DNA of 64,000 bases from Nymphaea colorata (taxonomy: Eukaryota > Streptophyta > Magnoliopsida > Nymphaeales > Nymphaeaceae): NCBI RefSeq assembly GCF_008831285.2, contig NC_045140.1, positions 22,834,131 through 22,898,130 on the forward strand, read 5' to 3'. The position numbers and the translations under genes are program-made. Of the stretch, positions 47,201 through 63,900 are shown in pieces (position 1 is the stretch's first letter; the number at the start of each line of letters is the position of its first letter). The notes below the pieces were generated by a model that searched no databases, had not been told where the DNA came from, and saw nothing but the letters and a program-made list of their open reading frames with translations.

Positions 47201-49240
47201 TTCGTGGGAATCCAACCTTTTAGCTTAATTTTGAGAACCACCATTTCCTTCCCAGGTTTGTTCAGAGGAGTTGTCCCTTCTATTGATTGATTACTGTTGA
47301 TCTCTGTCTTAAAATCCAGTAAAGACTTGCGTTCATGTACTCTTCCAATTCTTAAGACATTTCTTATTAAGCTGACATATCTAAATTCCCTCCACACAAT
47401 TGGTTTCATCAAACGTAACTTTATTTTACCCACACCATTTTTGCTGTTATAGGAAGTGTCTTTTCATTTAACCAATATGGGCATTTTAATAACACATGGT
47501 TCCTTGTGGTGAGAGACTGTGTTATACCTAAAAAAGAAAAAAGAAGAAGTTATTTTGCACTCTCTTAAATTTCTTGTCAAGAATTTTGTTTAGAAAAAAA
47601 AGTCAGAAAATGAAATTCGTGGACTTTGCTTCTTAAATTCCTTAAAATGCTTTTGACACTCATCAAACATAACAAGTTATGTGTTATGGGGAGTCTCCCT
47701 ATACACTAGTCGCCATCCTCATCAAACAAATTTTTTTTTTTTTTGTTGCATTGTCTACAAAAACGCCTAAACGTAAAAAAAAAATAAAGTTAAACTCCCT
47801 TTTCAATTTCCGAAAAGTTAGGGCAACCTCTGAGAAATTTCCAAAAAAAAAAAAGTTGCTAGAGGAGACGGTGGGCGGCAGAGTTGCTTCCGGAGACGCA
47901 AGTGCAGCTGCCAGTCTGCAGTGCATGAAGACGGACTCGCTCAGACTGGCATAAATATTTTAAACGTCACCCTTTTTCTGAGAAAAAAAAAAAACAACTC
48001 TTCACCAATTTGAAAAAGTAGAAAATCAAAGCTTTTTTTTTTTTTGGTTACTTCAAATAACTTATTTAATACAGTAAAACGATGATGTTACTGGAGAAAG
48101 AACTCATAGATTTTGAAATCAAAAAATTTATGAAAAGTGCTCATCAAAATTAAAGAGTAGTCATTGATGTTTTGGAGATCATTTTATTATACAAGTTTGT
48201 TTTTCCATATTTAAAGAGGGAGTGGAAGTGGAACAAGCTTCTTCTGCTTTTGTTGTTTTGTTCCACCTACCAAAATCCGCATCGACTCTCAGCTTGGGAG
48301 GAGAAAACAAAAGCACCCCAAGTTTGAATTTAGCTGCTTATATTGTTAAAAGAAAACGTCAGCATAGTTACAAAAAGGCGTTTTTTTTAAAAAAAAAAAA
48401 CTAAAAAAAAAGTGATAAATTAAATGACCATTTACAACATTTTAAAAAGCGTTTTCCTGAAAGAAACGTTAAAAACGAAAAAAACGTGTTTTTAACCTGC
48501 TTTTAACTCGTTTTTTTTCCTTTTTCATTTTTTTAATGTCAAACAATTTTTTTTATTTTATATTTTTTATTTGTTACAAATCTACTTATTTTTTAATGTT
48601 TTTGTTATTAGTTTTTCATTTATTTTATTCTTTCATTATTTTTAATTTTTTTATTTTTTAGAATTTATTGTATTCTTTTTATTTCTATTTTTTTCAAACT
48701 GGTCGTATTATACCCGAAAAAAATTTCACAATTTAAAACTCTGAAACATTAGTTATGAGTATGATATAGGAGTGGAACAAAATTATTTGATGTATTTTTT
48801 TAAAACTCTCGAACATTAGCTATGACGAGTGGAACAAAATTATTTGATGTATTTTTTTATACTGCAAAAGATTGAGCGACTTTTGTGAAATTTCAACTGT
48901 AGTAATTAAGAATTTATCCGGAAAATTTCTTTTGTAGAGATGATAAGGATGTGAACGGTTACATTCAAAATCTGGTAAAGACGTATGTTTTTTTTTTTTG
49001 TGCATTAATAACAATTTCGTAGTGAAAGTATCACAAATTTGTTATTTAATGTCTCCGACTCCGAGAGTGGGTTATGATTCGGCCCCGACCATTATCGACC
49101 CGATCCAATATCCACGCAAGGAACAAGGCAGATATTGTCATTCTGCTTCGAGGAGACCCGAGACAGCAACTCCTAACCGCGACCCGCGAGCTCCATGGCG
49201 CCGTCATAGGGGCGTTAAGCGGGAGTGTCAGACCGTTACG
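47201..49240. other. Intergenic, very AT-rich
   Basis: Long T and A homopolymers (for example near 47730, 47985, 48380 and 48520-48660) dominate. The imperfect tandem repeat at 48734-48857 is listed separately. The last 190 bp are a less AT-rich leader of the PPR gene, in frame with it from an ATG at 49049. Confidence 0.5.
48734..48857. repeat. Imperfect tandem repeat, two units of 67 and 57 bp
   Basis: Unit one (48734-48800) and unit two (48801-48857) share aaaactct..aacattag.tatga and then gagtggaacaaaattatttg followed by atgtatttttt. Unit two lacks about 10 bases in the middle. Confidence 0.8.
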
Positions 49241-52234
49241 ATGGCGAGCCCGCTACCAGTTTTGTCTTCCCGCGCCTTCATAGGCACGGCCTTTCACTCT
49301 GATGGGGATTCCAATTGTCTCTTTTCCTCCTTTTCTTCTCCAAAACATGGTGCCTCTGTTGCTAATGCTCACCGTGAACGAATTTCAAGCAGAACCGTCT
49401 CCCTATATCCTCCCCAACCATCAGAAAAATATGAGATTTGCCATCTGAGAAGCCGTAGAGATGCCCATTACTACGCGACTGAGATCAGACGGGTTAGCAC
49501 CCAAGAATGCTCAGAATTTGCTATTGGGAATCTCATTTGGTCGATGGATGAAGATGGGTTTCATCCAAACAGGGCCCTGGCTGCTCAACTCTTGCAGGCT
49601 TGTGTCCGCTGTTCTTCCTACCAACTTGCAAAGCTGGCGCATGGCTTCCTTTTGAGAGTCTACCCCGATCTTCGTAACGATACAATTATATGCAACAATT
49701 TGGTGGGGATGTATGCGAAGTTGGGCTATCTGGACGATGCACTTCATTTGTTTGACGGAATGAATGAGAAAAGCTTGATTTCTTGGTCAGCTGTTATTTC
49801 TGCTTGCAGTCAATCAGGGTACTTTTTAGCAGCAGTACTACTGTTTAGGGAAATGAGGAGAGAAGGTTTGGCGCTTAACGAGTTCGCTCTGGGAAGTGTT
49901 CTAAAAGCAAGCTCGGGGCTGTTGGACACATTTCTTGGCAAACAGCTTCATGCTTTGTCGATACAGAGTGGCTTCCAGTCAGATGTCTGTGTGAGGACAG
50001 CGCTTATAACAATATATTCTAGATGCAACTTAATATCTGATTCTTTGAATGTTTTTCAGTATATAGATTCTCACGATATTACTTCCTACAACTCCATGCT
50101 TGCTGCCTATGTTCAAAATGGGAATTGTGTTGAATGTATAAAATTGTTTTTGCAGGCGATCTCTTTAGGATTTGTTCCGAATGAGCCAACTTATGCTAGT
50201 GTTTTCACTGCTTGTTCGACCATGTGCGATATTTATTTTGGCAGGGCTTTGCATGGCCATATAATAAAGATTGGTCTTTTTGGTATAACTCTTGGTAATT
50301 CACTTATCACACTCTATGATAAATGTGGAAGATTCAATGATGCTCTCAAGCTGTTCACTTCCATGGGTGAGAAAACTATAGTTACCTGGAATGCAGTTAT
50401 TGCAGCATGTGCACACAAAAATAGGTTTTCACATGCAGTAGATCTATTTAAAAGGATGCAGTCGGTTGGGATAAGACCAAATCATGTAACTTTATTGAGC
50501 ATTCTAAGTATGGTAGCTTCTGCCGCAGCTTTGAAGCAAGGTAAAGAAATTCATGCTCAATTTACGAGATATGCTTTTGGGCAAAATGTGGCTCTTGCAA
50601 ATTCCTTGATTACAATGTATGCTAAATGTGGTTGCCTGGACAAAGCAAAAGTTGTCTTTGACAAAATGCCAAGCCGAGATGTAATTTCATGGAATGCAAT
50701 GCTCTCAGCTTATGTTCAAAACAACCATTGGAAGGATGCTTTTAAACTATTTAAAGGGATGAATCTTACAGGCATTTGGCCAGATGATCACACTTTCACT
50801 GTTATCCTTGGCTCTTCCTCTTGGTTAGAAGAACAATTGAGGGGTGATGGTAGAGAATTTCATGCGTACATCTTGAAGACAGCTTCCAAGGCGTTAGCAG
50901 TGTCTACCAGCAATGCTCTTGTAACCATGTACTCTAACATTGGCAATCTTAATGCAGCAGAGAAGATTTTTCTGAAAATCAGAAAGAAAGATCTATATTC
51001 CTGGAATGCAATGATGGATGGGTACTCCATAAATGGCAAGGGTGATGATGCCATTGTCCTTTTCCTGAAGATGCAGTGGCTTGGCGTCAGGTGGGACCAT
51101 CTGACACTCTCCATTCTCCTTGCAACATGCAGTAGGTTGTTGTCTCTTGAGCTCAGTCGACAGTTTCACGCCTTTGTTGTAAAAAGTTATACTCAGATTG
51201 ATGATAGTCCATCTTCTGTTTCAGTTTACAATGCTCTCATATCTACATATTCCAAATGTGGTAGCGTAGCAGATGCAATTTGTGTATATGAAAGAATGGT
51301 TCATACTGATGTTTACTCTTGGACAACAATACTGAGTGCATATGCCCATTATGGAATGGGCCACAAGGCACTTGAACTCTTTGAGACCATGATTGCTCAG
51401 GGGATTAGTCCTAATGCTGTAACATTTTTGAGTTTACTTACTAGTTGTGCTCACACAGGTTTAGTCAAAGAAGGGATCTACTATTTTGATATCATGACTA
51501 AAAATTATGGCATACATCCAGAGGTTGAGCATTATGCGTGCATGGTTGATCTCTTTGGAAGATCAGGTCATCTCGAGAAAGCTGTAGCATTCATCATGGA
51601 TCTTCCTGTTAACCATGGCACCACATTGTGGAAGGTTCTTCTAGGTTCTTGTCATTTACACAAGGAACTCAATCTTGGCATTGAAGCTGCGAGTAGAATT
51701 CTCCAGTTGGAACCTGGTGATGAGACAACATATGTGCTTCTCTCTAACATCTATGCATTCTATGGCATGTGGGAGGATTCTATAAAACTGAGAGGAATGA
51801 TGAAAAATAAAGGACTGAAGAAGGAAACGGGGTGGAGTCGGATTGAAATAGGAAATAAATGGCATGGATTTGTAGCAGGGGATGTGTTGCACCCACATAG
51901 GAAGGAGATATATGAGAAGCTGGAGGAAACTGATGAAAAAATTAGGGGGATGGGTTATTTGCCCATGACTGAGCTGGTTTTGCATGACGTGGATGAATCA
52001 CAAAAAGAAGTCCTAATCAGTCATCACAGTGAAAAACTTGCTGTTTGCTTTGGGATTTTGCAAACTCCCCCTAGCAAGCCTATAAGAGTGATTAAGAATC
52101 TGAGAACTTGTGAAGATTGTCATAACTGGATGAATCTGGTCTCAGTGATAGAAAAGCGCTTCATCATAATGAGAGACTCTCGTCGTTTCCATTGCTTCAA
52201 AGATGGTAAATGTTCATGTGGTGACTACTGGTAA
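49241..52234 (+). CDS. Pentatricopeptide repeat protein, PLS class with E/E+ and DYW domains
   Basis: Intronless, 997 residues from the ATG at 49241. DYW-type PPR proteins bind single-stranded organelle RNA and deaminate specific cytidines to uridine in mitochondria or chloroplasts. About 15 or more PPR motifs fill residues 115-800, with typical triplets such as NSLITMYAKCGCLDKAKVVF, SRDVISWNAMLSAYVQNNHW and PNHVTLLSILSMV. The E region follows (NIYAFYGMWEDSIKLRGMMK). The PG box reads KKETGWSRIEIG, where KKEPG.SWIE is usual. The DYW domain is complete: HSEKLAVCFG (zinc His and catalytic Glu), LRTCEDCHNW (zinc Cys pair) and the terminal HCFKDGKCSCGDYW. The frame is also open upstream with an ATG at 49049. 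MASPLPVLSSRAF at 49241 looks more like a presequence start and is preferred. Target site unknown. No damage seen. Confidence 0.95.
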   Translation: MASPLPVLSSRAFIGTAFHSDGDSNCLFSSFSSPKHGASVANAHRERISSRTVSLYPPQPSEKYEICHLRSRRDAHYYATEIRRVSTQECSEFAIGNLIWSMDEDGFHPNRALAAQLLQACVRCSSYQLAKLAHGFLLRVYPDLRNDTIICNNLVGMYAKLGYLDDALHLFDGMNEKSLISWSAVISACSQSGYFLAAVLLFREMRREGLALNEFALGSVLKASSGLLDTFLGKQLHALSIQSGFQSDVCVRTALITIYSRCNLISDSLNVFQYIDSHDITSYNSMLAAYVQNGNCVECIKLFLQAISLGFVPNEPTYASVFTACSTMCDIYFGRALHGHIIKIGLFGITLGNSLITLYDKCGRFNDALKLFTSMGEKTIVTWNAVIAACAHKNRFSHAVDLFKRMQSVGIRPNHVTLLSILSMVASAAALKQGKEIHAQFTRYAFGQNVALANSLITMYAKCGCLDKAKVVFDKMPSRDVISWNAMLSAYVQNNHWKDAFKLFKGMNLTGIWPDDHTFTVILGSSSWLEEQLRGDGREFHAYILKTASKALAVSTSNALVTMYSNIGNLNAAEKIFLKIRKKDLYSWNAMMDGYSINGKGDDAIVLFLKMQWLGVRWDHLTLSILLATCSRLLSLELSRQFHAFVVKSYTQIDDSPSSVSVYNALISTYSKCGSVADAICVYERMVHTDVYSWTTILSAYAHYGMGHKALELFETMIAQGISPNAVTFLSLLTSCAHTGLVKEGIYYFDIMTKNYGIHPEVEHYACMVDLFGRSGHLEKAVAFIMDLPVNHGTTLWKVLLGSCHLHKELNLGIEAASRILQLEPGDETTYVLLSNIYAFYGMWEDSIKLRGMMKNKGLKKETGWSRIEIGNKWHGFVAGDVLHPHRKEIYEKLEETDEKIRGMGYLPMTELVLHDVDESQKEVLISHHSEKLAVCFGILQTPPSKPIRVIKNLRTCEDCHNWMNLVSVIEKRFIIMRDSRRFHCFKDGKCSCGDYW

Positions 52235-52904: not shown

Positions 52905-53107
52905 TGTTTTTCCAAGACACGTTTGACAAACACGTACCACCTGCTCCCGAAAAGGACCAGATTTTCTATCAGCCATTAATTAGGAAGGTTCCTCAGGGAC
53001 ACATGGCGTCTTCTATTATCTTATCTTGGGGCAAAAGCCTATTCAGTCAACGGTGGAAGTCTCTGCTAGGGCAAACTTTTCCTCTTCGCCACGCCACTAC
53101 AACAGAC

Positions 53108-53114
53108 TATAAAT
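53108..53114 (+). promoter_or_regulatory. TATA box of protease gene 1
   Basis: tataaat inside gactataaatccacatgaa, a block conserved in front of protease gene 2. It puts transcription start at about 53140, downstream of the ATG at 53119, so that ATG is unlikely to be used. Confidence 0.75.
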
Positions 53115-53166
53115 CCACATGAATGAAAAGCAAACACGGAGAGAGGAAGTGAAGAAAAGAAAAAAG

Positions 53167-53847
53167 ATGGAGATCATTCCGTTGCTTGTCTCCATGCTCC
53201 TGCTCATGTCATCAGAGGCCATCCTGACCCAGGCCCAGGTCCGATTGACCGGCACGAATACTGCATCCGCCACGCAGGGTGGCATGCGGTTTGACCGCGA
53301 GATCGGCTTACAGTACAGCCTGAAGGTCGTCTCAGATGCCACTAACTTCATCTGGCAGACTTTCAGGCAAGGCGCCGCCGACCGGAAGCCGGTGAACTCT
53401 GTGGGCCTATTCATCGATGATATAGGCGGCGTCGCCTACACATCTGGCAACCAAATCCACGTTAGTGCTCCCTACATCGCCGGTTACAGCGGCGACGTGA
53501 GGAGGGAGATAACAGGGATCCTGTACCACGAGACAACGCACGTTTGGCAGTGGGACGGCAAGGGGCAGGCACCGGGATGGGTGATCGAGGGCGTCGCTGA
53601 CTACATCCGGCTGAAGGCGGGGCTTGCGCCGGCTCATTGTAGGAAGCCCGGCGAGGGGAACAGCTGGACGGATAGCTATGACATTACAGCTCGTTTCTTT
53701 GACTACTGCAACGGATTGAAGGATGGGTTCGTCGCTGAGCTGAACGGGAAGATGAAGGACGGCTACAACGATCAGTTCTTTGCGGACATCCTGGGAAAGC
53801 CTCTGAACCAGCTGTGGAGCGACTACAAAGCTGCGCCCAGGAGTTGA
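53167..53847 (+). CDS. Basic secretory protease (plant BSP family), copy 1
   Basis: 226 residues, intronless. The family includes tobacco NtPRp27 and other secreted, stress- and pathogen-induced proteins (Pfam 'plant basic secretory protein', a zincin-like metalloprotease fold). Residues 1-23 are a signal peptide (MEIIPLLVSMLLLMSSEAIL, then TQAQ). The core has VNSVGLFIDDIGGVAYTSGN and YSGDVRREITGILYHETTHV. HETTH (His121, His125) is the zinc motif HExxH, and EGVADYIRLKAG with Glu141 is the expected downstream ligand region. The C-terminus is LGKPLNQLWSDYKAAPRS. The start was taken at 53167 rather than 53119 because of the TATA box position and because the signal peptide then begins at the Met. 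The paralogue at 57890 has the same length and start. Probably apoplastic; substrate unknown. Confidence 0.9.
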   Translation: MEIIPLLVSMLLLMSSEAILTQAQVRLTGTNTASATQGGMRFDREIGLQYSLKVVSDATNFIWQTFRQGAADRKPVNSVGLFIDDIGGVAYTSGNQIHVSAPYIAGYSGDVRREITGILYHETTHVWQWDGKGQAPGWVIEGVADYIRLKAGLAPAHCRKPGEGNSWTDSYDITARFFDYCNGLKDGFVAELNGKMKDGYNDQFFADILGKPLNQLWSDYKAAPRS

Positions 53848-55556
53848 TTTCTTCGGCTTTGCTTGAATGGACCTGCCCAAGTTGTGTTTAGGCGAGCTAC
53901 CAGTTTAGTGTCATCTATAATGGAGTTTGTGATATGATGACGTGACTCTGTTGCAACATCTATGAGGAACAAAGAGACTTGTAAAAGTAAAAGAAATAAA
54001 CCTTTACGAATGAATTATTATGCTTGGTTAGTACAGCTCTGAGTGCCTACTCAATCTGGAATCTTATTATTAATGGTAGTTTATTCTTAAGGATTGAATA
54101 TAATAGTTTTCTCCTTGCTGTCATTGGTTTTTAATTTTTCATTTAAAACTGAAAGTTAGTTATCAAGTATATATCTAAAACCAGTTCAGCAATCTTACCA
54201 ATTCCCAAGTATTTCTGATTTGGGCTTCCATCGTGAGGGCGTGACCCGGCATAACGAGGGGCCATTAAGCCGACGGGCCAGGCTAGTTAAGTCTGGGTTC
54301 TAGTGGGGAGGTGAACTACCGCTTAGACCTGTCCTATTGCCCAGTCTTAAATGTACATAAAGAATTTTCAAATAAGGAGAACAAACGAGATCCATAAAAA
54401 ATTGGTATGAAATTTCGTAAGGAATCACTTTGGTCATTGATTTTTTCAAGATGCATGTTTGGGAGAAATGAATGTTAGATGACTAAAATATTGTCTCCTT
54501 TTTTTCTTGATTTTCTCTTTGCTGTCCATCTTGAAAAGATTAGATGTGGATCAAATCCAAATCTCCTGGGCAGAAGGGGTTGATTAGCTACAGCGGCCAC
54601 GTATCGAAGGACGGTCCCTAGTTAAAAGCAAGATAGCAAGAAAGAAGAGAGAACAAAAGCAAGAGTCAAAGTGGTTCGGCAGAAAAGTGCCTATGTTCAC
54701 GACCGAAATCTCTCCTTTCATTCGTCACAAGGGAGAGAGTAGCTTTTATTTAATTATCCTTAGTTACAGGGAGATCCAATAAAACGTAGATTTTGGTTAG
54801 TCTTTCTCTTTTGGTGCTGATCTAGTAGATTTAGATCACTCGCTTCCTATGGCACCCTTGTCAAAACCTTCTTGTTTTTAGTGGAATTCTGCAACCTGCT
54901 TGTCAAAACACAGTTTCACTCTGTTGCAGAAAAGAAGTCAGTATAGACAATGGTGCGAAATTCCGGTAACATCAATAAGAATGAACAAAGAGAAAATTAA
55001 GGAAATGCGTCTTGTATTTCAGACGTGATCCATTATATATATAGGTACTAACAGATCATTGAAAATAAAAACAATTTGTAACTGTTCCATGAACATTCTC
55101 AAGGTTAGATGTGACGCTTGCTAAAATATTCCATGAATTGCTTAATCTTTAAGGTATATTTATAAAACGGTTAGAGACAATTCCCTTCACCAAATTGGCC
55201 CTAAATTAACCCTGTTTGCATGTTTATTGGATCCTTCTTATGATCTTTTTCCTTATCTTCCTCTGGACACCATCAATGGAGTGCTTGTTCTACACTCACC
55301 CTGAGTATTGGTCAACCTCAAAATACTAGCAGCTGGTTTCCAGTGCAGAGCAGTTAGGCAGAATCTAAAGTTCATCAGAGGCGCTAGGTTATCGGACATC
55401 AATGCCCGTCCAGTTTCATTTTTCACAATAGAAAACTCTTGGTCAGGGATCTTGTCTTCATCATTGTCACCAGTGGGAGGACCCTGACTTCCTCGAAGTC
55501 ACATTTCAGCAATATTCTTCCCCGCTCTTTCATTGAAACTCACTCAGAAGTCATTA

Positions 55557-55560
<4 letters not shown>

Positions 55561-55631
<71 letters not shown>
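55561..55631. repeat. Pure (AT)n microsatellite, 71 bp
   Basis: An uninterrupted AT alternation about 185-250 bp upstream of small-protein gene 1. Unit 2 has a (CT)n run at the related place (59867-59901). Array length in an assembly of such a repeat is uncertain. Confidence 0.97.
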
Positions 55632-55632
<1 letters not shown>

Positions 55633-55813
55633 CCCAGAGAGACTTCGTACATCATCGTCGCCGTCGATTATCGGATCCAAGGGCCAATAGAAGTCGAGCA
55701 TGGCCGTCAACATTGACTAGGGAGATGCTTAATGTCTGGCTTGATTTCCCTTGTATAGTTAACGCATGTAAGCATAATGAAGCAACCATTGAGGAAGCAT
55801 ACAGAAACCATCA

Positions 55814-56128
55814 ATGGATCACCTCCATTTTATCCTCCTTTCTCTGCTTGCTGTGCTTCTTGTGATCCAAGCCATTGTACGATGTCCTCCCAGCAACAGC
55901 CAATATCCTACCATACTTGGTTGCAGTCATTTCAACGAGGAGGCTGCTTTCTCTTGCAGAGAGGACGCCATTGGAGGAGCTTCTAAGTCCATCCGCAGGC
56001 TCCTCTTCTGGCAACGTCATGTAATGCAGAACCTGATGGGATGCAACAATCGTGAGCCACAATATCCGTTTGAATTTATCCCCTTTATCTGGATTTTTGC
56101 TGTAAATTTGATTCAGATGGAAATATGA
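55814..56128 (+). CDS. Small secreted or membrane protein of unknown family, copy 1
   Basis: 104 residues. The N-terminus is a hydrophobic signal or anchor (LHFILLSLLAVLLVIQAIV, residues 4-22). A Cys-containing middle follows, with GCSHFNEEAAFSCRE, LLFWQRHVMQNLMGCNN and PFEFIPF. A second hydrophobic stretch, IWIFAVNLIQM, ends the protein. I recognise no family. Copy 2 at 60353 aligns along the whole length. Copy 1 has 13 extra codons after AIV and two extra codons in each of two other places, and copy 2 has one extra codon in KQQ. All indels keep the frame, which favours real coding. A weakened TATA-like tgtatag lies 62 bp upstream of the ATG, at the same distance as the better TATA of copy 2. 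Intronless. Confidence 0.6.
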   Translation: MDHLHFILLSLLAVLLVIQAIVRCPPSNSQYPTILGCSHFNEEAAFSCREDAIGGASKSIRRLLFWQRHVMQNLMGCNNREPQYPFEFIPFIWIFAVNLIQMEI

Positions 56129-56435
56129 TTCTCGTGTGTTGGTGCAATCATGGTTCGAAAATCATTGAAACTTACAGACCCTACGAGTTGTTTGGGATCG
56201 TTATTTCAAAGATTATTGATGGTGTTTTCCACAGGACTATTGCACTAGCGCCCAATGCACATTAAAATCACTGCATGCATTGCCAATGAACTCCATCTGC
56301 GATGCCATCATGCCAATGATGGAGGATTTACCAGTTAAAAAGTGCGGTATGTAGCGCAGATGAAAGCTTGAGAGAAACTCAGGAATGTAATGGATTGAAC
56401 CACCGTTGTGAGAAAGAGAAATGAAGATTGAGTTT

Positions 56436-57589
56436 TCAGGCATATCCAGTTTGGACGTTAAAAAAAAAAAAGAAGAAAAGAAAAGAAAACTTGAGACTGC
56501 AACATCCACTTATATCTATATATAGAAAAATTGGATGGCGACTTGGCATTTTTAGAGTTATCCAACCATTCCAATAAGATTATTTAATCTAATATAATAG
56601 ATATTTAAGAGAAAAATGAAGAGAAAAAATTATTAGCATTTTCATCGTTAAGTTCAAATTTTTCTTTTTTTTTTTTTTCTTTCAACCATTCATCTGCTTT
56701 AGATGACCCAATTAGACGCTGGTGATTCTAAAAACCTTCTCTCTCTTTCTTGGTGATTCTAAAAACGAGAGTCACCATTTACCTTCTCTCTCTTTCTTTC
56801 CCTCTCTCTCTCTCTTTCTCTCTCTATATATATATAATATGGCCACCAAAAAGAAAAAGTCCTTAAAACACCTTAGTCAACCATCTCTCGCTCAAATTTG
56901 CTCGCTACCTGTCTCTCTCTCCATGCGTAAGTCCTCGCGCTTCAACGTGTAGGGTTTTTTCATAAAACTCGAATTGGATGTGTCATCTTCTTACTTTCCA
57001 TTTCCTACTGCCTTAGCGCTTTCTTGCTAGTTTTTCAAGATTTTCTTGTCAGTTATCTAACTAAACCATTGGAATTAGAAAATTGCACTCTTAGTTCAAT
57101 AATGGAGTGGTCATCTACTATATTAAACTTCTCACTATAAAATTACATATAAGTTGAACTAATTATATATTGATCCAGTTTACCATAAAATTAAACTAGT
57201 GGCTCTCATGTCCAATTTACGATACATTTGAGTATATATAATGAAAAGTACAAATAGAAAGGACAATTCAAATATAATCAAGCAAACTCGATCACAGAAG
57301 CAATCAATACATGCATACCGATCGATGAAAAATCAGATCATAGAAAAAAACAAGCAAATAACACCGCAAAATTTGCATTCACAATCCATGATGAAAAATA
57401 AAGAAATTAAGAAAAAACTGATTATACGTATTGATTGGAAATATCAAATTACCGCCTACCTGGTTCATGGGCCGGTAAGAATAGTTCAGATTTCTGAGAC
57501 CAACCCATAAACGAACAGAACACGTTATGGAAAGTCATTCTCAATAGACTCTTGTTTCCAGAACAAGTTTGACAAACAAGAAAAATACC
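56436..57589. other. Spacer between the two duplicated units
   Basis: Contains a short internal duplication around ggtgattctaaaaac (about 56720-56767), each copy followed by an accttctctctctttct-type run. A CT-TA microsatellite lies at 56784-56837. AT-rich DNA follows. The 83- to 90-codon ORFs here show no family. Confidence 0.5.
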
Positions 57590-57837
57590 TATTTTTTCCA
57601 TGACATGTTTGACAAACACATACCACCTGCTTTAAAAGGGCAGTTTAACTTTGCAAGTGTTTCAATGAATATGTCCCAGAACGCTAGAACTAAGTGTTCA
57701 TCATCAAAGGCTCACAACGCGTTCGTTTACCAAACGACCTAAAAAAGACAGCATGCATTTTCCTTGTTGGTGAAAAGTTACATGCAAAGAGACACATGGT
57801 GCCCTTACACGCCAATATCTTAAGGCTCAGCAGAGAC

Positions 57838-57844
57838 TATAAAT
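57838..57844 (+). promoter_or_regulatory. TATA box of protease gene 2
   Basis: tataaat inside gactataaatccacatgaa, 46 bp before the ATG. Both sequence and place are shared with protease gene 1. Confidence 0.75.
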
Positions 57845-57889
57845 CCACATGAAACGCAAACACTCAGACAAGAGGAGAAAAAGAAAAAG

Positions 57890-58570
57890 ATGGAGATCAT
57901 GCAGTTGCTCGTCTCCACGCTCCTGCTCATGTCATCAGGGCTCGCCCTGACCCAGGCCCAGGTCCAATTCACCGGCAACAACACTGCATCGGGCACGCCG
58001 GGTGGCGTGCGGTTCGAACGCGAGATCGGCTTACAGTACAGCCTGAAGGTCCTCTCAGATGCCACCAACTTCATCTGGCAGACTTTCAGGCAAGGCACCG
58101 GTGACCGGAAGCCGGTGAACTCGGTGGGCCTATTCGTCGATGATATCGGCGGCGTAGCCTTCACATCCGGCAACCAAATCCACTTGAGCGCTCGCTACAT
58201 CGCCGCTTACAGCGGCGATGTGAGGAGGGAGATAACGGGGGTCCTGTACCACGAGCCCACGCACGTCTGGCAGTGGGACGGCAAGGGGCAGGCGCCGGGA
58301 TGGGTGATCGAGGGCGTGGCCGACTACGTCCGGCTGAAGGCGGGTTTCGTGCCTCCTCAGTGGGTGAAGCCCGGCGAGGGAAACAACTGGGACGAAAGAT
58401 CTGACGTAACAGCTCGATTCTTTGACTACTGCAATGGATTGAAGGATGGGTTCGTAGCTGAGCTGAACGGGAAGATGAAGGACGGCTACAACGGTCGGTT
58501 CTTTGCGGACATCTTGGGAAAATCTCTGAACCAGCTGTGGAGCGACTACAAAGCTGCGCCCAGGAATTGA
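57890..58570 (+). CDS. Basic secretory protease (plant BSP family), copy 2
   Basis: 226 residues, intronless, a close paralogue of the gene at 53167 with no length change. Signal peptide MEIMQLLVSTLLLMSSGLAL is followed by TQAQVQFTG. The zinc motif here is HEPTH (YHEPTHVWQWDG), against HETTH in copy 1, with both His and the Glu kept. EGVADYVRLKAG follows. The most variable stretch between copies is the loop after that motif: GFVPPQWVKPGEGNNWDERS against GLAPAHCRKPGEGNSWTDSY. Copy 1 has a Cys in that loop that copy 2 lacks. Variation centred near the presumed active-site cleft could reflect different substrates or inhibitor escape, which is inference. Intact. Expected to be secreted to the cell wall space. 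Confidence 0.9.
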   Translation: MEIMQLLVSTLLLMSSGLALTQAQVQFTGNNTASGTPGGVRFEREIGLQYSLKVLSDATNFIWQTFRQGTGDRKPVNSVGLFVDDIGGVAFTSGNQIHLSARYIAAYSGDVRREITGVLYHEPTHVWQWDGKGQAPGWVIEGVADYVRLKAGFVPPQWVKPGEGNNWDERSDVTARFFDYCNGLKDGFVAELNGKMKDGYNGRFFADILGKSLNQLWSDYKAAPRN

Positions 58571-59864
58571 TTTCTTCGGCTTTGCTTGAATGGACCTGCC
58601 CTGGTTGAGTTCAGTCGAGCTATCAGTTAGTTTAGAAGCATCAATAATGGAGTTTGTGCAGTGATAAAAAATGGAAGAAGGTGACCGTCTATCAGTCTAT
58701 GTAACTCTCTTGCAGCTTTCTGCTTTGTTACTTGTTAGCTAGGAAGTGACTTAGGCCAAGGAAATAAATAAACCCTTATGAATATTTATTTTTAATAATA
58801 TAACATATGGTTGAGACTGGCCATGGCGGCTTATTAGACGTCATTTGTCATCAAGACACTATGAAAGAATCACATTCATTGAACCCTAGAACTAGTATCT
58901 CGTGAACATACCTTGATTTTTAAACTATATTCATAACATCCCTTCTCCTCAACAATATCTTAATTGATTGATAGTCTGACCATGAAGAATTCGAAGCATT
59001 GGGTTAGAGAAAGTACCCACTTGAATCAAATTAAAAGAATCAAATCGGATTTAACACATAAAAACTTTGTTTTTGTCAACTTTTGGGAAAAAATTATTAG
59101 TTATTTATTTAAATCCACTTATGTTAACAAAATGCAACCGATTGAAATTTATACCTCAAACCAATGTGTGCCTATGTAAATCTTAGGAATTCCCACACGC
59201 AGTTTCAGATTCAGTACTTACCTTAAATTGTGTACTGGGTCAGAGTCTGACTAAAGAATCAATTGGACCTACTTTTTCTTGACCGATTCGATGCATTTGC
59301 ATGGCCAAAAAGGAAAAAAGAAAAAAAGGAATAGAGTTGTCTTGGAACTAGCAGTGCGGTTCAACCAATAAACATAAGAAATTAAAAAAATATGCGGAGG
59401 TAAAATCATTTTTCTAATCTATCAACTATCTAAACATCAATTTCTCGGCTATATGTCTTTATGATCAATCGATCAAGATTTATTTATCATGTCAATAACT
59501 TCAATTACTTCCAAGGCATCATAGGATTCAGAATCTTGTGTGATGGACATGGAGAAATGCTCAAAAATTGATCCAATAATTATGTTATATCCAACTCTAA
59601 CTCACGGCAAAGATAGGCCTAATTCAAATTAATTCGAAAACCCGTACTTATAAACACTGAACCTCTAAAAATCAAGTGTGTTCCACCAAAAACCAACAGC
59701 TACTGGAATCGAATACTTCCGTGAAGGGAGGGAGAGAAATGGGTGGATGGATCACTGCAACTCCATAACTTGGAGGCCACTCTCTCACCAACTACGTACG
59801 AATTAATTTTCTTCATTGTTATCGTCGTTAGGAGGACCTTGACTTCCCCTGCCACTCTTGAAAA

Positions 59865-59901
<37 letters not shown>

Positions 59902-60222
59902 AAAAAGAAATGGCTCACCATTTGGAGAATTTGGCTCTTTAGGTGAGTCATCTGGAACTCTAGAAATGATATTATTTATAGAAATGAAGCCGTCTCAGTT
60001 GAACTCACGTTTGGTTAATTTTTCGTAACCTATGGGAAACTATAACCTATGGGAAACTATCGGTACCTTCAACATCATACAAGAATTGAGATCTGATTTG
60101 TACATGTAATCTTTTTTCAAGTTCAACTTTTTGTTGGACTTATGTTAATGTTATTTTCCTCTCTCTCTCTCTCTCTCTCCGCGTTTCCTTGGCCCTCAAG
60201 AATCATTAACTGCAACTACCAT

Positions 60223-60265
60223 CGAAGTTGCCAAGGAGATCCCCAAGCGAAGTTGCCAAGGAGAT
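60223..60265. repeat. 18-bp direct repeat in the promoter of small-protein gene 2
   Basis: cgaagttgccaaggagat occurs at 60223-60240 and again at 60248-60265, just upstream of the TATA box. Unit 1 has only a diverged single version (ctagggagatgct), so the doubling is specific to unit 2. Confidence 0.8.
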
Positions 60266-60290
60266 GCTAAGTGCTTGGCTTGATTTCCCT

Positions 60291-60297
60291 TATATAG
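60291..60297 (+). promoter_or_regulatory. TATA box of small-protein gene 2
   Basis: tatatag within tgatttcccttatatagttc, 62 bp before the ATG. The matching place in unit 1 reads tgtatag. Confidence 0.6.
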
Positions 60298-60352
60298 TTC
60301 TGACATCTGAGCAAATTGAAGGACAGACTGACGCAGCAAACCAAATCCAGTA

Positions 60353-60619
60353 ATGGATCATCCCCTTGTTATCTTTCTTTACCTGTTTGCCATGTTACTA
60401 GTTATCCATGCCATTGTAGGTTGCGGTCATTTCAACAAGCAGCAGGCTGCTACCTCTTGCAGAGGGCATGGCGCCTTTGGAGGAGCTCCCAGGGCCATTT
60501 TCTGGCGAGGTCATGTAACGCAGAACCTGATGGGGTTCTGCAACGATGGGCTAGATCCATTTGAATCTATCCCTTTTTTCTGGATTTTTGCTGTCAATTT
60601 GATTCAGATGGGGGCATGA
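60353..60619 (+). CDS. Small secreted or membrane protein of unknown family, copy 2
   Basis: 88 residues. A hydrophobic N-terminal signal or anchor covers about residues 4-22 (PLVIFLYLFAMLLVIHAIV). Then come GCGHFNKQQAATSCRGHGAF, GGAPRAIFWRGHVTQNLMGF, CNDGLDPFESIPFFWIF and the tail AVNLIQMGA. Shared with copy 1 are three Cys (GC, SCR, CN), the HFN and FW..HV.QNLMG words, PFE.IPF and the hydrophobic WIFAVNLIQM end. A decent TATA box is present 62 bp upstream. With a protease gene as constant neighbour it might be a secreted partner, substrate or inhibitor, but that is only suggested by position. The C-terminal hydrophobic end could also make it a membrane hairpin protein. Confidence 0.6.
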   Translation: MDHPLVIFLYLFAMLLVIHAIVGCGHFNKQQAATSCRGHGAFGGAPRAIFWRGHVTQNLMGFCNDGLDPFESIPFFWIFAVNLIQMGA

Positions 60620-60990
60620 TTTCCATATATTGGTCAACCATGGCCTAAAATCTATGAAGTTACAGACCCGACAAGTTGTTTGGCATTTCTCTTTCAAAGA
60701 ATTGAAGGTGTTTCCGCAGAATTGCAGCTCGATGCACATCAAAATCACCGCATTTTCATTGTCTACCTACCGACGATGATGTTGAATTATGCTTTTGAGG
60801 AAGGGGTTGCATTGCCAACTGCATCTGCAATCGCGTGTCGGAAATACTGGAACTCCTAAACATTGAACTGCATTGCGATGCTACTGTGGAGGATTTACCA
60901 GTTAAAAATACGATATGTAAAAGCTAGGAAGATACTCAGGAAGTAATGGAGTGTACTGCCGTTGAGAGAAAGACAAGTGAAGAATTGTGG

Positions 60991-63900
60991 TCGTGTAGTA
61001 GGTTCATCCTTGAATTGAACAATGTAATGGAGCAGGTTCAATCTTGAATTGAACAATGTAACTGGTGTGAATCATAATTGTGTTTTGTTTCAAGGTATCA
61101 GAGATGCCAGCCCTTGTGTCTGACTTGCTAGCTTAGTTATGTAAATTATTGACGGTGAGATGGTGTCTTCCAGTTATGTCCCATTTCTATCATTATCTGC
61201 TACTTGGTTTCTATCAAGCTTGTTAGATCAAAACACCATTAAAAGAATAAGGAATGCTGAATACATAACTCAAGTGGGAGGTCAGCCTAACGATCTTATG
61301 CTGGAGCAATTCTACGCTCACTTGATCGAATTACTCGAGTTGTAGGGCTGGAAACATCAAACGAAATATGAGAACTATTGAGGATCAGGACCCGTGTAGA
61401 ACAGACAATCAAGATTCAAGCGACTCAAAAGCAGAAAGCAAGGAAGTAATGCCATCTGCTATTAGGAACGCTTGCCATTGTTCAGAGGCAGGTAATGAAT
61501 CGCATCCTTGATGACCTTTCTAGTAAATCTTTCATTTGTTGATCAAATGATCCTTTCATTTGGTATCACTGAGTTTGATGAAACTAAAAGAGTATTGCTA
61601 TTGAATTATGAAACAGAGTTGGGGAAACATGCATGGAGATTCTTCCGAAGACTAACGGACGTAGGAGCGATTTGTATTCATGAACAAGTCGAGGATCTCT
61701 TTGTTTAATTCATGAATCGGTCGATCGATATATACGGTGTTTGAAATCTGAATCTGCAAGTCTTTCCAGAGGATTCATTAATGTCTTGGAGCAAAAGTAC
61801 TCCAGAATCACAACCAAATCTCTTTAAGATCGGGCTCAAAAACACTTTTGGTAATTGCTTTTTCTTCTTTGGTTCTATACCACCGCAGTGGGTTTCTTAT
61901 TTGCATGTTGGCAAGATTTTCTGCAAACATATTTGTTCGTGTTCACATACACAAATGTGGAGTGCCGAAGAACAGTAAGAGACAAGGCGTCCCAATTATC
62001 CAACACTATCACGTGAACTGTGAACACCTAAGCTCAGGCCCAGACATCCCCTGCTTCAAAAGCCTCACCTGTCGAGTCCACTGGAGCAGATGCGCCGATC
62101 GACCGACCTTCTGCTACCTGCGCCCTCTCTCCGGCCTCAACACATGGGAACATTCTGTACCAATATTTTCTTCAGCTCTCACACTATACATGGAACATTC
62201 TCTCATGTTCGTGTTTATGCACTTCTTTGTTTGGACTTTGGAAGGAAAAGGCGTTGAACAGTTCATAGATTACTTGCTTTATTGGTGTTTTGTTAATTAT
62301 AGGGATCATTTAGTAGTAGGGACACTATGCGAAGGTCATATGAAAATCTACCTCAATTATTGCATCAGATTGATAAAAAACACCCGCAAACTTTGAGACC
62401 GATAAGTGGGACACTCACATATTGTTCCTTTTACCAAACTACTTCATATACATACACAAAATATAGTTATTCATAGATATTTTTGAATTGGCACAAAAAA
62501 TTTCAATTAGGGTTGTATATGCTGAGATCACCGGCTAATCGTGGGTCGTTTGTCCTTGAAAGTTGTTGTTATGTGTATTTGTCTCAAAGATTGGGGCACA
62601 TTCGTAGAATACTTAACAAAATGTTGTAACAATCTCATTCAATCTTTAGAGCAAATACCTAAGATAGAGCAAATGCGTAAGATAGCAACATATTGTTATT
62701 GTAGCCAAACACCCCTTATACTACTGGACCGGGCTCAAACGTAATCAGCTGTTAATCCGAGGATTCGGACAGGACGTGAGGAGAACCCACCTCCTTAATG
62801 CAGGTCGCCGGACCAAGACTTGCTTGATCAATTAATGCCTAATCCTTGCAGAGAACATAAATTAGAGACAATAATGAAGCCGTATAAAGTTCTAAAGAGT
62901 CTGCCATATCAGAGGAGTAGGTCCTATTTCTTGGTTGCTAAAATCTCAATATCTGTTTCATAATCCAATTATATAAGCAATATCCAATTAAATCCTTACT
63001 ATTGTTAAGTGGGTTTTGAACTGTAGCAGAAACTTGAGTGCTACTCTGAAAATGTTCCATATGAACAATCATTTGCATCTCATTTTAACATTATGGTAGC
63101 ATCAATCTTTTTGTTATATGCTCCCGTGTGCCTCACATGTCAATAGCATATTTTTATCGAACTCGAAGAACCATGTACATGGCATGGCTTTCTATGCCAT
63201 TTTGAAATGCTAAAATATGTCACACATTCGCTTGGACAATAGTTTTAAAATAATTGTCTTTGTACGTCATAATGACGATCTTTTAAGAAGTAGATAGTTT
63301 CGCCGAGATAAAAGGAGGAAGTTTTCGAATGAATAGTTCTTTATGGTATAGAAAGAAGGGCGCGTCTTACTCCAAGAAAGTGAGATTTTTGTGGAGTTAA
63401 CAAATGGTTGTAGGCTCATGCAGTGGTTGCTTTCTTATACACTAAGGTCGGACGGGACCATGCATCACGTGAGAATGGCACATGAATTTTATTCTTGAAG
63501 TCAAAAAATATTTTCTAGACAAATGACGATATGGAATACATACTTTGAATTCAAGACAAATCTTGACCATGGAACAAAAGGGTCTTGTAAGCGCTTGGAT
63601 TTTCAAAACTCGTCTCTTATTTCAAGAAAAAAAATCCGCAATTAGTGGCCGCAACCATGGTTGGCAGTACAAGGAAACGATAAGAAATATACACAAATAA
63701 AAACTTTGTACGTACAAAGAGATTCGAACCTGCATCGACGGTGTGGCCAAAGAAAATATAAATGTTTTAGCCTTAGTTTTAATTATTAAAGAGATTTAGG
63801 CTTTTGAAAGCGGGTCGGATCGGGTTACACGACACCGCTGATTAATCATAGAGCTAGGGCACGATCAAACCGGGTTCGGTCTGAGGACGGGTTTGATTTG

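Follow-up and report, generated by a model that had tools for sequence, protein, structure and literature searches.

A tandem pair of PR-17/basic secretory protein genes in Nymphaea colorata, one with a changed putative active site, each followed by a small open reading frame

We analysed a 64,000-nucleotide stretch of the Nymphaea colorata genome (GCF_008831285.2, NC_045140.1, positions 22,834,131 to 22,898,130; hereafter the window), which contains two genes of the PR-17/basic secretory protein (BSP) family, BSP1 and BSP2. Roughly 2 kb downstream of each, on the same strand, lies a small open reading frame (ORF), named SP1 and SP2, respectively. With slightly better than even confidence, we favour the reading that a PR-17/BSP gene and a separately promoted small gene were duplicated once in tandem, that the active site of BSP2 has changed, and that the small gene was a passenger. 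An earlier note on this DNA had described a two-gene unit that recurs in the same order and orientation, which both the coordinates and blastn confirmed. The new point is that BSP2 carries HEPTH at the HExxH motif and Ser at residue 171, and this apparently altered active site offers a more testable point than the pairing of the genes, which as it stands is ordinary for tandem duplication.

BSP1 (53167..53847) and BSP2 (57890..58570) both lie on the forward strand, and each encodes 226 residues in an uninterrupted frame, that of BSP1 being open without introns. Both proteins matched PF04450 (E 1.7e-74 for BSP1 and 1e-75 for BSP2; 250.6 and 254.5 bits, respectively, against a gathering score of 23.8), with profile positions 3-207 of 207 covered in each, and they are identical to each other at 186 of 226 residues in a gap-free alignment. 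The HExxH zinc motif is present in both, as HETTH (residues 121-125) in BSP1, which also has E141 and Y171, and as HEPTH in BSP2, in which residue 123 is Pro. By eye, the N-terminus of both proteins is hydrophobic and signal-like. The two genes appear to encode proteins of plant defence that carry a metal site of the HExxH type, and we infer that these are secreted. Furthermore, the pair evolved under constraint, with an omega of 0.45 (0.27-0.76), differences by codon position of 17, 21, and 37, and a BLOSUM test value that was reached by none of 2000 replicates. For BSP1, the ORF list gives a start at 53119, which adjoins a conserved TATAAA at 53108 and for that reason probably lies too far upstream; the start at 53167 agrees with the second copy. 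A sequence search of the PDB with BSP1 found no credible relative (best E 0.064).

The conserved positions were assessed in an alignment of BSP1 and BSP2, its sole plant members, with 84 bacterial relatives, some of them near duplicates. These comprised four sequences from seven plasmid records and the best 80 of 141 relatives confirmed among at least 598 pattern matches. The collections scanned were prokaryotic, viral or plasmid, and the scan yielding the 141 relatives was led by bacterial sequences; a genome-contig scan led by the BSP pair confirmed none of its 79 pattern matches. Eight residues (H121, E122, H125, Q128, E141, G142, D145, and R148) were invariant in all 84 relatives and in both plant copies, although residues 117-125 and 138-147 sit in the two search patterns and counts there are biased. 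HExxH, E141, D145, and R148, together with W217, which was found in 83 of the 84, are the features that the plant pair has in common with BSP-family proteins of Pseudoalteromonas, Paenibacillus, and Bacteroidales. Residue 171 lies outside the search patterns, and it is Tyr in BSP1 and in every one of the 84 bacterial sequences, but Ser in BSP2. This Tyr is located about 46 residues past HExxH, and its status as a family-defining residue is our own reading, the plant members aligned being BSP1 and BSP2. The first variable position of HExxH, residue 123, is L, I, M or V in the bacterial proteins, unlike the Thr of BSP1 and the Pro of BSP2; Pro occurs in none of the 84. In the 12 relatives that lack the pattern covering this residue, it is L in 10, M in one, and V in one. 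Both plant copies thus depart from the bacteria at this position, and it is the Pro alone that is notable. Across the 23 columns with agreement in at least 80 of the 84 relatives, BSP1 and BSP2 each deviate at six, five of which are in common. The deviations not shared are residue 147 in BSP1 (V to I) and residue 171 in BSP2 (Y to S).

The activity of BSP2 may be reduced or altered, because other gluzincins have a Tyr close to the metal that contributes to catalysis. We consider BSP2 a candidate pseudoenzyme that may be catalytically altered. In the scenario we favour, BSP1 would retain the conserved residues, while the changed site of BSP2 (HEPTH, and Tyr171 to Ser) would probably leave it with weak or altered catalysis, and any action of this copy would be via binding and not cleavage. 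Structure prediction for BSP2 from a two-row alignment gave an unusable model (mean predicted local distance difference test score, pLDDT, 33.5). On the bacterial side, a BSP-family gene stands directly beside genes for glycosidases of glycoside hydrolase family 92 (GH92) in two of four plasmid loci (Pseudoalteromonas and Bacteroides; L002:55-813 and L004:127-924), one of the other two loci carrying no annotation. This adjacency hints at a glycan-related role of the bacterial family.

These results can be set against what is reported for PR-17 proteins. They are secreted, pathogen-induced, and poorly understood, and a review (PMC11327054) calls PR-17 the least understood pathogenesis-related class, with aminopeptidase activity postulated. 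PMC9322406 describes PRp27 of N. benthamiana, which has the motif HESTH, is apoplastic and defence-induced, and binds a hydroxamate probe via HExxH; its H122F mutant still raised immunity. HExxH was reported there to be dispensable for PR-17 immunity, and barley Hv-PR17 was reportedly unable to cleave either casein or gelatin. In soybean, a TIR-NBS resistance protein carries a fused BSP domain (PMC11019568). BSP1 and BSP2 resemble this family (tobacco NtPRp27, N. benthamiana PRp27, barley Hv-PR17, and wheat WCI-5) in covering nearly the whole PF04450 profile and in having HExxH and a signal-like N-terminus, the likeness to these plant members being drawn via the profile and published descriptions. 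BSP2 differs in having HEPTH and in lacking the Tyr common to the bacterial relatives. Contrary to the family name, both proteins are predicted to be near neutral, with isoelectric points of 5.8 (BSP1) and 6.3 (BSP2) for the precursors and of 6.5 and 7.0 from residue 25, so that the label "basic" given by the earlier note does not fit them. Its term "protease" also needs care, given the lack of casein and gelatin cleavage by Hv-PR17, the immunity retained by H122F, and the altered site of BSP2.

The order and strand of the genes are identical in the two units, and the spacing is similar, though not the same as the earlier note had it, with 1966 bases from the BSP stop codon to the small ATG in unit 1 and 1782 bases in unit 2. 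Comparing unit 1 with unit 2 by blastn yielded a BSP block (87.5% over 832 columns) and a small-ORF block (68.9% over 562 columns and 77.1% over 118). A sensitive search added two blocks in the BSP promoter, one of 39 bases at 92% and one of 61 columns at 79%. In addition, an intergenic shred at 55452..55531 (forward strand) is collinear with 59807-59885 upstream of SP2 (81 columns, 68%); its blastn E value was 8.4e-6, against 0.45 for the best reversed-sequence control, which suggests that the duplicated segment extended upstream of the small gene. The collinear blocks, which keep one order in both units, comprise the BSP promoter shreds, BSP with its 3' untranslated region (3'UTR), the shred before the small ORF, and the small ORF with its 3' flank. 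Nei-Gojobori synonymous divergence (dS) was 0.21 for BSP (bootstrap 0.13-0.30) and 0.33 for the small ORF (0.18-0.54), and the intervals overlap. We searched the 64 kb for a third copy of either gene and found none, with only weak matches at E 0.05 or more. On these alignments, the pairing is beyond chance. A single tandem duplication fits because of the collinear similarity and the overlapping synonymous divergence, in agreement with the duplication of a two-gene segment that had been proposed. Most likely, both genes were copied together in one old local event, involving a segment of about 4.5-4.7 kb with one PR-17/BSP gene and the adjacent small gene, and heavy turnover of the intergenic DNA would have followed. 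The earlier note took the retention of both genes as a sign of a linked role. This is not supported, because a single duplicated segment of only modest divergence carries both genes, and their co-retention is expected from passive carriage.

Each gene is preceded by its own TATA-like element on the forward strand, 52-62 bases before the ATG, and for this reason nothing suggests co-transcription. The elements are TATAAA at 53108..53113 (59 bases before the BSP1 ATG and conserved before BSP2), TATAAA at 57838..57843 (52 bases before the BSP2 ATG), TGTATA at 55752..55757 (62 bases before the SP1 ATG), and, at the matching position of the second copy, TATATA (60291..60296, 62 bases before the SP2 ATG).

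SP1 (55814..56128, forward strand) encodes 104 residues with four Cys, and SP2 (60353..60619, forward strand) encodes 88. The same residue is found in 56 of 85 aligned codons. Three Cys are common to both proteins (C37/C24, C48/C36, and C77/C63), as had been noted, and the fourth is found in SP1 only. Of the hydrophobic termini described before, the N-terminus is strongly so, with a highest Kyte-Doolittle mean over 19 residues of 2.7 in SP1 and SP2 alike, but the C-terminus is no more than moderately hydrophobic (1.5 and 1.3). The observation that the small protein belongs to no recognised family held in Pfam and NCBIfam, where neither SP1 nor SP2 had a match above the cut-off; SP2 had sub-threshold matches to Pfam DUF6766 (E 0.14) and in NCBIfam (E 0.11). 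Likewise, PDB sequences queried with SP1 gave no relative at E 10, none of 44 pattern matches was confirmed when viral contigs were scanned with the alignment of the two small proteins, and nothing was found for the sequence motifs in the open-access papers searched. Structure prediction from the two-row alignment again gave an unusable model (mean pLDDT 47.3). Small Cys-containing secreted plant peptides are a generic class defined by short length, a hydrophobic N-terminus, few Cys, and rapid change. SP1 and SP2 are like this class in all four respects and unlike it in matching no curated family, in their moderately hydrophobic C-terminus, and in having only three common Cys. The small gene, carried along by its proximity to the BSP gene, would encode a peptide of its own that contains Cys, evolves fast, and is secreted or anchored in a membrane; it is a candidate for a secreted peptide specific to this lineage. 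Two alternative gene models were considered and dropped by eye. In one, the hydrophobic C-terminus would be the tail of an intron left unspliced, namely the T-rich stretch that runs up to a CAG ahead of the stop; in the other, a short intron precedes the SCR codons. The introns that these models call for would be of very small size or would lack conserved coding sequence on their 3' side. Past the end of SP1, the stretch 56126..56427 (forward strand), which holds its stop codon and the 3' flank, resembles 60617-60983 at about the identity of the ORF. It has frame-breaking indels, for which reason an extension of the reading frame past the stop was rejected; a 12-codon stretch past the stop reads alike in both copies.

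Several lines of evidence suggest that the small ORF is probably coding, or was so at least for a time after the duplication. In the MAFFT alignment, all five indels inside the ORF are multiples of three, compared with three of 12 in the flanks. Four of five other gap settings agree, with 5/5 or 6/6 in-ORF indels in frame, and the first of the five gave 5/16 multiples of three in the 3' flank. An in-frame stop lies 24 bases before the ATG in both copies. The BLOSUM test gave P values of 0.009 overall and 0.019 given no stop, and its residue-identity version gave 0.052. The length of the ORF is weak evidence, as four ATG-initiated ORFs of at least 88 residues occur in 8380 non-BSP bases, compared with a mean of 1.0 in 300 shuffles. 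We judge the small ORF to be fast-evolving or relaxed, as no clear purifying selection is apparent in its substitutions.

Some of the results weigh against the favoured reading as a whole. For the active site, the Thr123 of BSP1 is also absent from the 84 bacterial relatives, and plants may simply vary there; the position falls inside one search pattern, and the four plasmid relatives are 22-32% identical to BSP1 and BSP2, which make up the whole plant side. For the duplication, most of the intergenic DNA is unalignable, which leaves a single event unproven and two events possible. For the small ORF, one of the five gap settings gave only 4/12 in-ORF gaps as multiples of three, omega is 0.59 with an interval (0.28-1.23) that includes 1, and under all five settings the 3' flank was at least as conserved as the ORF (0.815-0.842 versus 0.805-0.831).

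The findings on the small ORF also bear on a different account, in which it is now non-working, either a decaying gene or a non-coding transcript, and its frame survived by chance in both copies. The upper bound of the omega interval would fit this, as would the even distribution of differences over codon positions (18, 17, and 16 of 87; 20, 13, and 19 in a protein-guided alignment), the missing family match, and the similar conservation of ORF and 3' flank, with MAFFT identities of 80.5% (210/261) for the ORF, 77.4% (209/270) for the 3' flank, and 65.5% for the 5' flank. The GC content at third codon positions is 0.48-0.49 in the small ORFs and 0.75-0.78 in the BSP genes, though it is 0.38 in a neighbouring pentatricopeptide repeat (PPR) gene. 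Such an account, however, has to accommodate the in-frame indels and the same ATG and TGA retained by both copies. Neutral simulation from copy 1 with two sets of indel lengths left the ORF intact in 94 and 119 of 20000 runs (about 0.5-0.6%), or in 997 of 20000 with substitutions alone. We regard it as somewhat unlikely, though the most serious competitor.

The shared order and orientation, the hydrophobic signal-like N-termini of both kinds of protein, and the four frames that all remain open would also be expected if the small secreted protein served the adjacent PR-17 protein as its dedicated partner, whether as inhibitor, as chaperone or as substrate, and the two were kept together as a functional module. 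A single duplication is nevertheless a sufficient cause of the pairing, the small protein is without clear purifying selection, and the TATA-like elements are separate. A partner role is possible, with the data speaking neither for nor against it, but we consider this explanation doubtful. It is still less probable that BSP1 is catalytic and BSP2 a pseudoenzyme with a role as guard, bait or regulator, and that both have a secreted partner peptide diverging along with them, in a lineage-specific apoplastic defence module; if true, such a split would help explain HExxH-independent PR-17 immunity. Finally, the small-ORF block is the sole well-aligned part downstream of each BSP 3'UTR, as it might be if an independent repeat or mobile element had inserted twice near the BSP genes. 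We regard this as highly improbable, since only two copies exist in the 64 kb, a collinear shred lies upstream in both units, and the divergence overlaps that of the BSP pair; inverted-repeat pairs numbered zero around SP2, and the 25 listed among the 79 around SP1 all involve an AT run. Returning to the single tandem duplication with a changed BSP2, a pair in which BSP1 has the conserved active-site residues and BSP2 lacks one of them would provide a natural test of enzyme versus non-enzyme roles.

The window as a whole probably represents plant nuclear DNA. Scans for bacterial-type promoters and terminators were at chance level (17 versus 18.6 and 6 versus 6.5, respectively), and neither an Rfam match at the gathering threshold nor a tRNA was found in it. 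Four of ten ORFs screened against Pfam had matches, namely a DYW-type PPR gene and ferredoxin, F-box, and GH95 C-terminal pieces. The last three are sited upstream, and the PPR gene (48947-52234) is a long single ORF directly upstream of the duplicated segment. On the far side of SP2, a direct tandem repeat of 34 bases with 88% likeness occupies 60994-61061, just past the conserved 3' flank.

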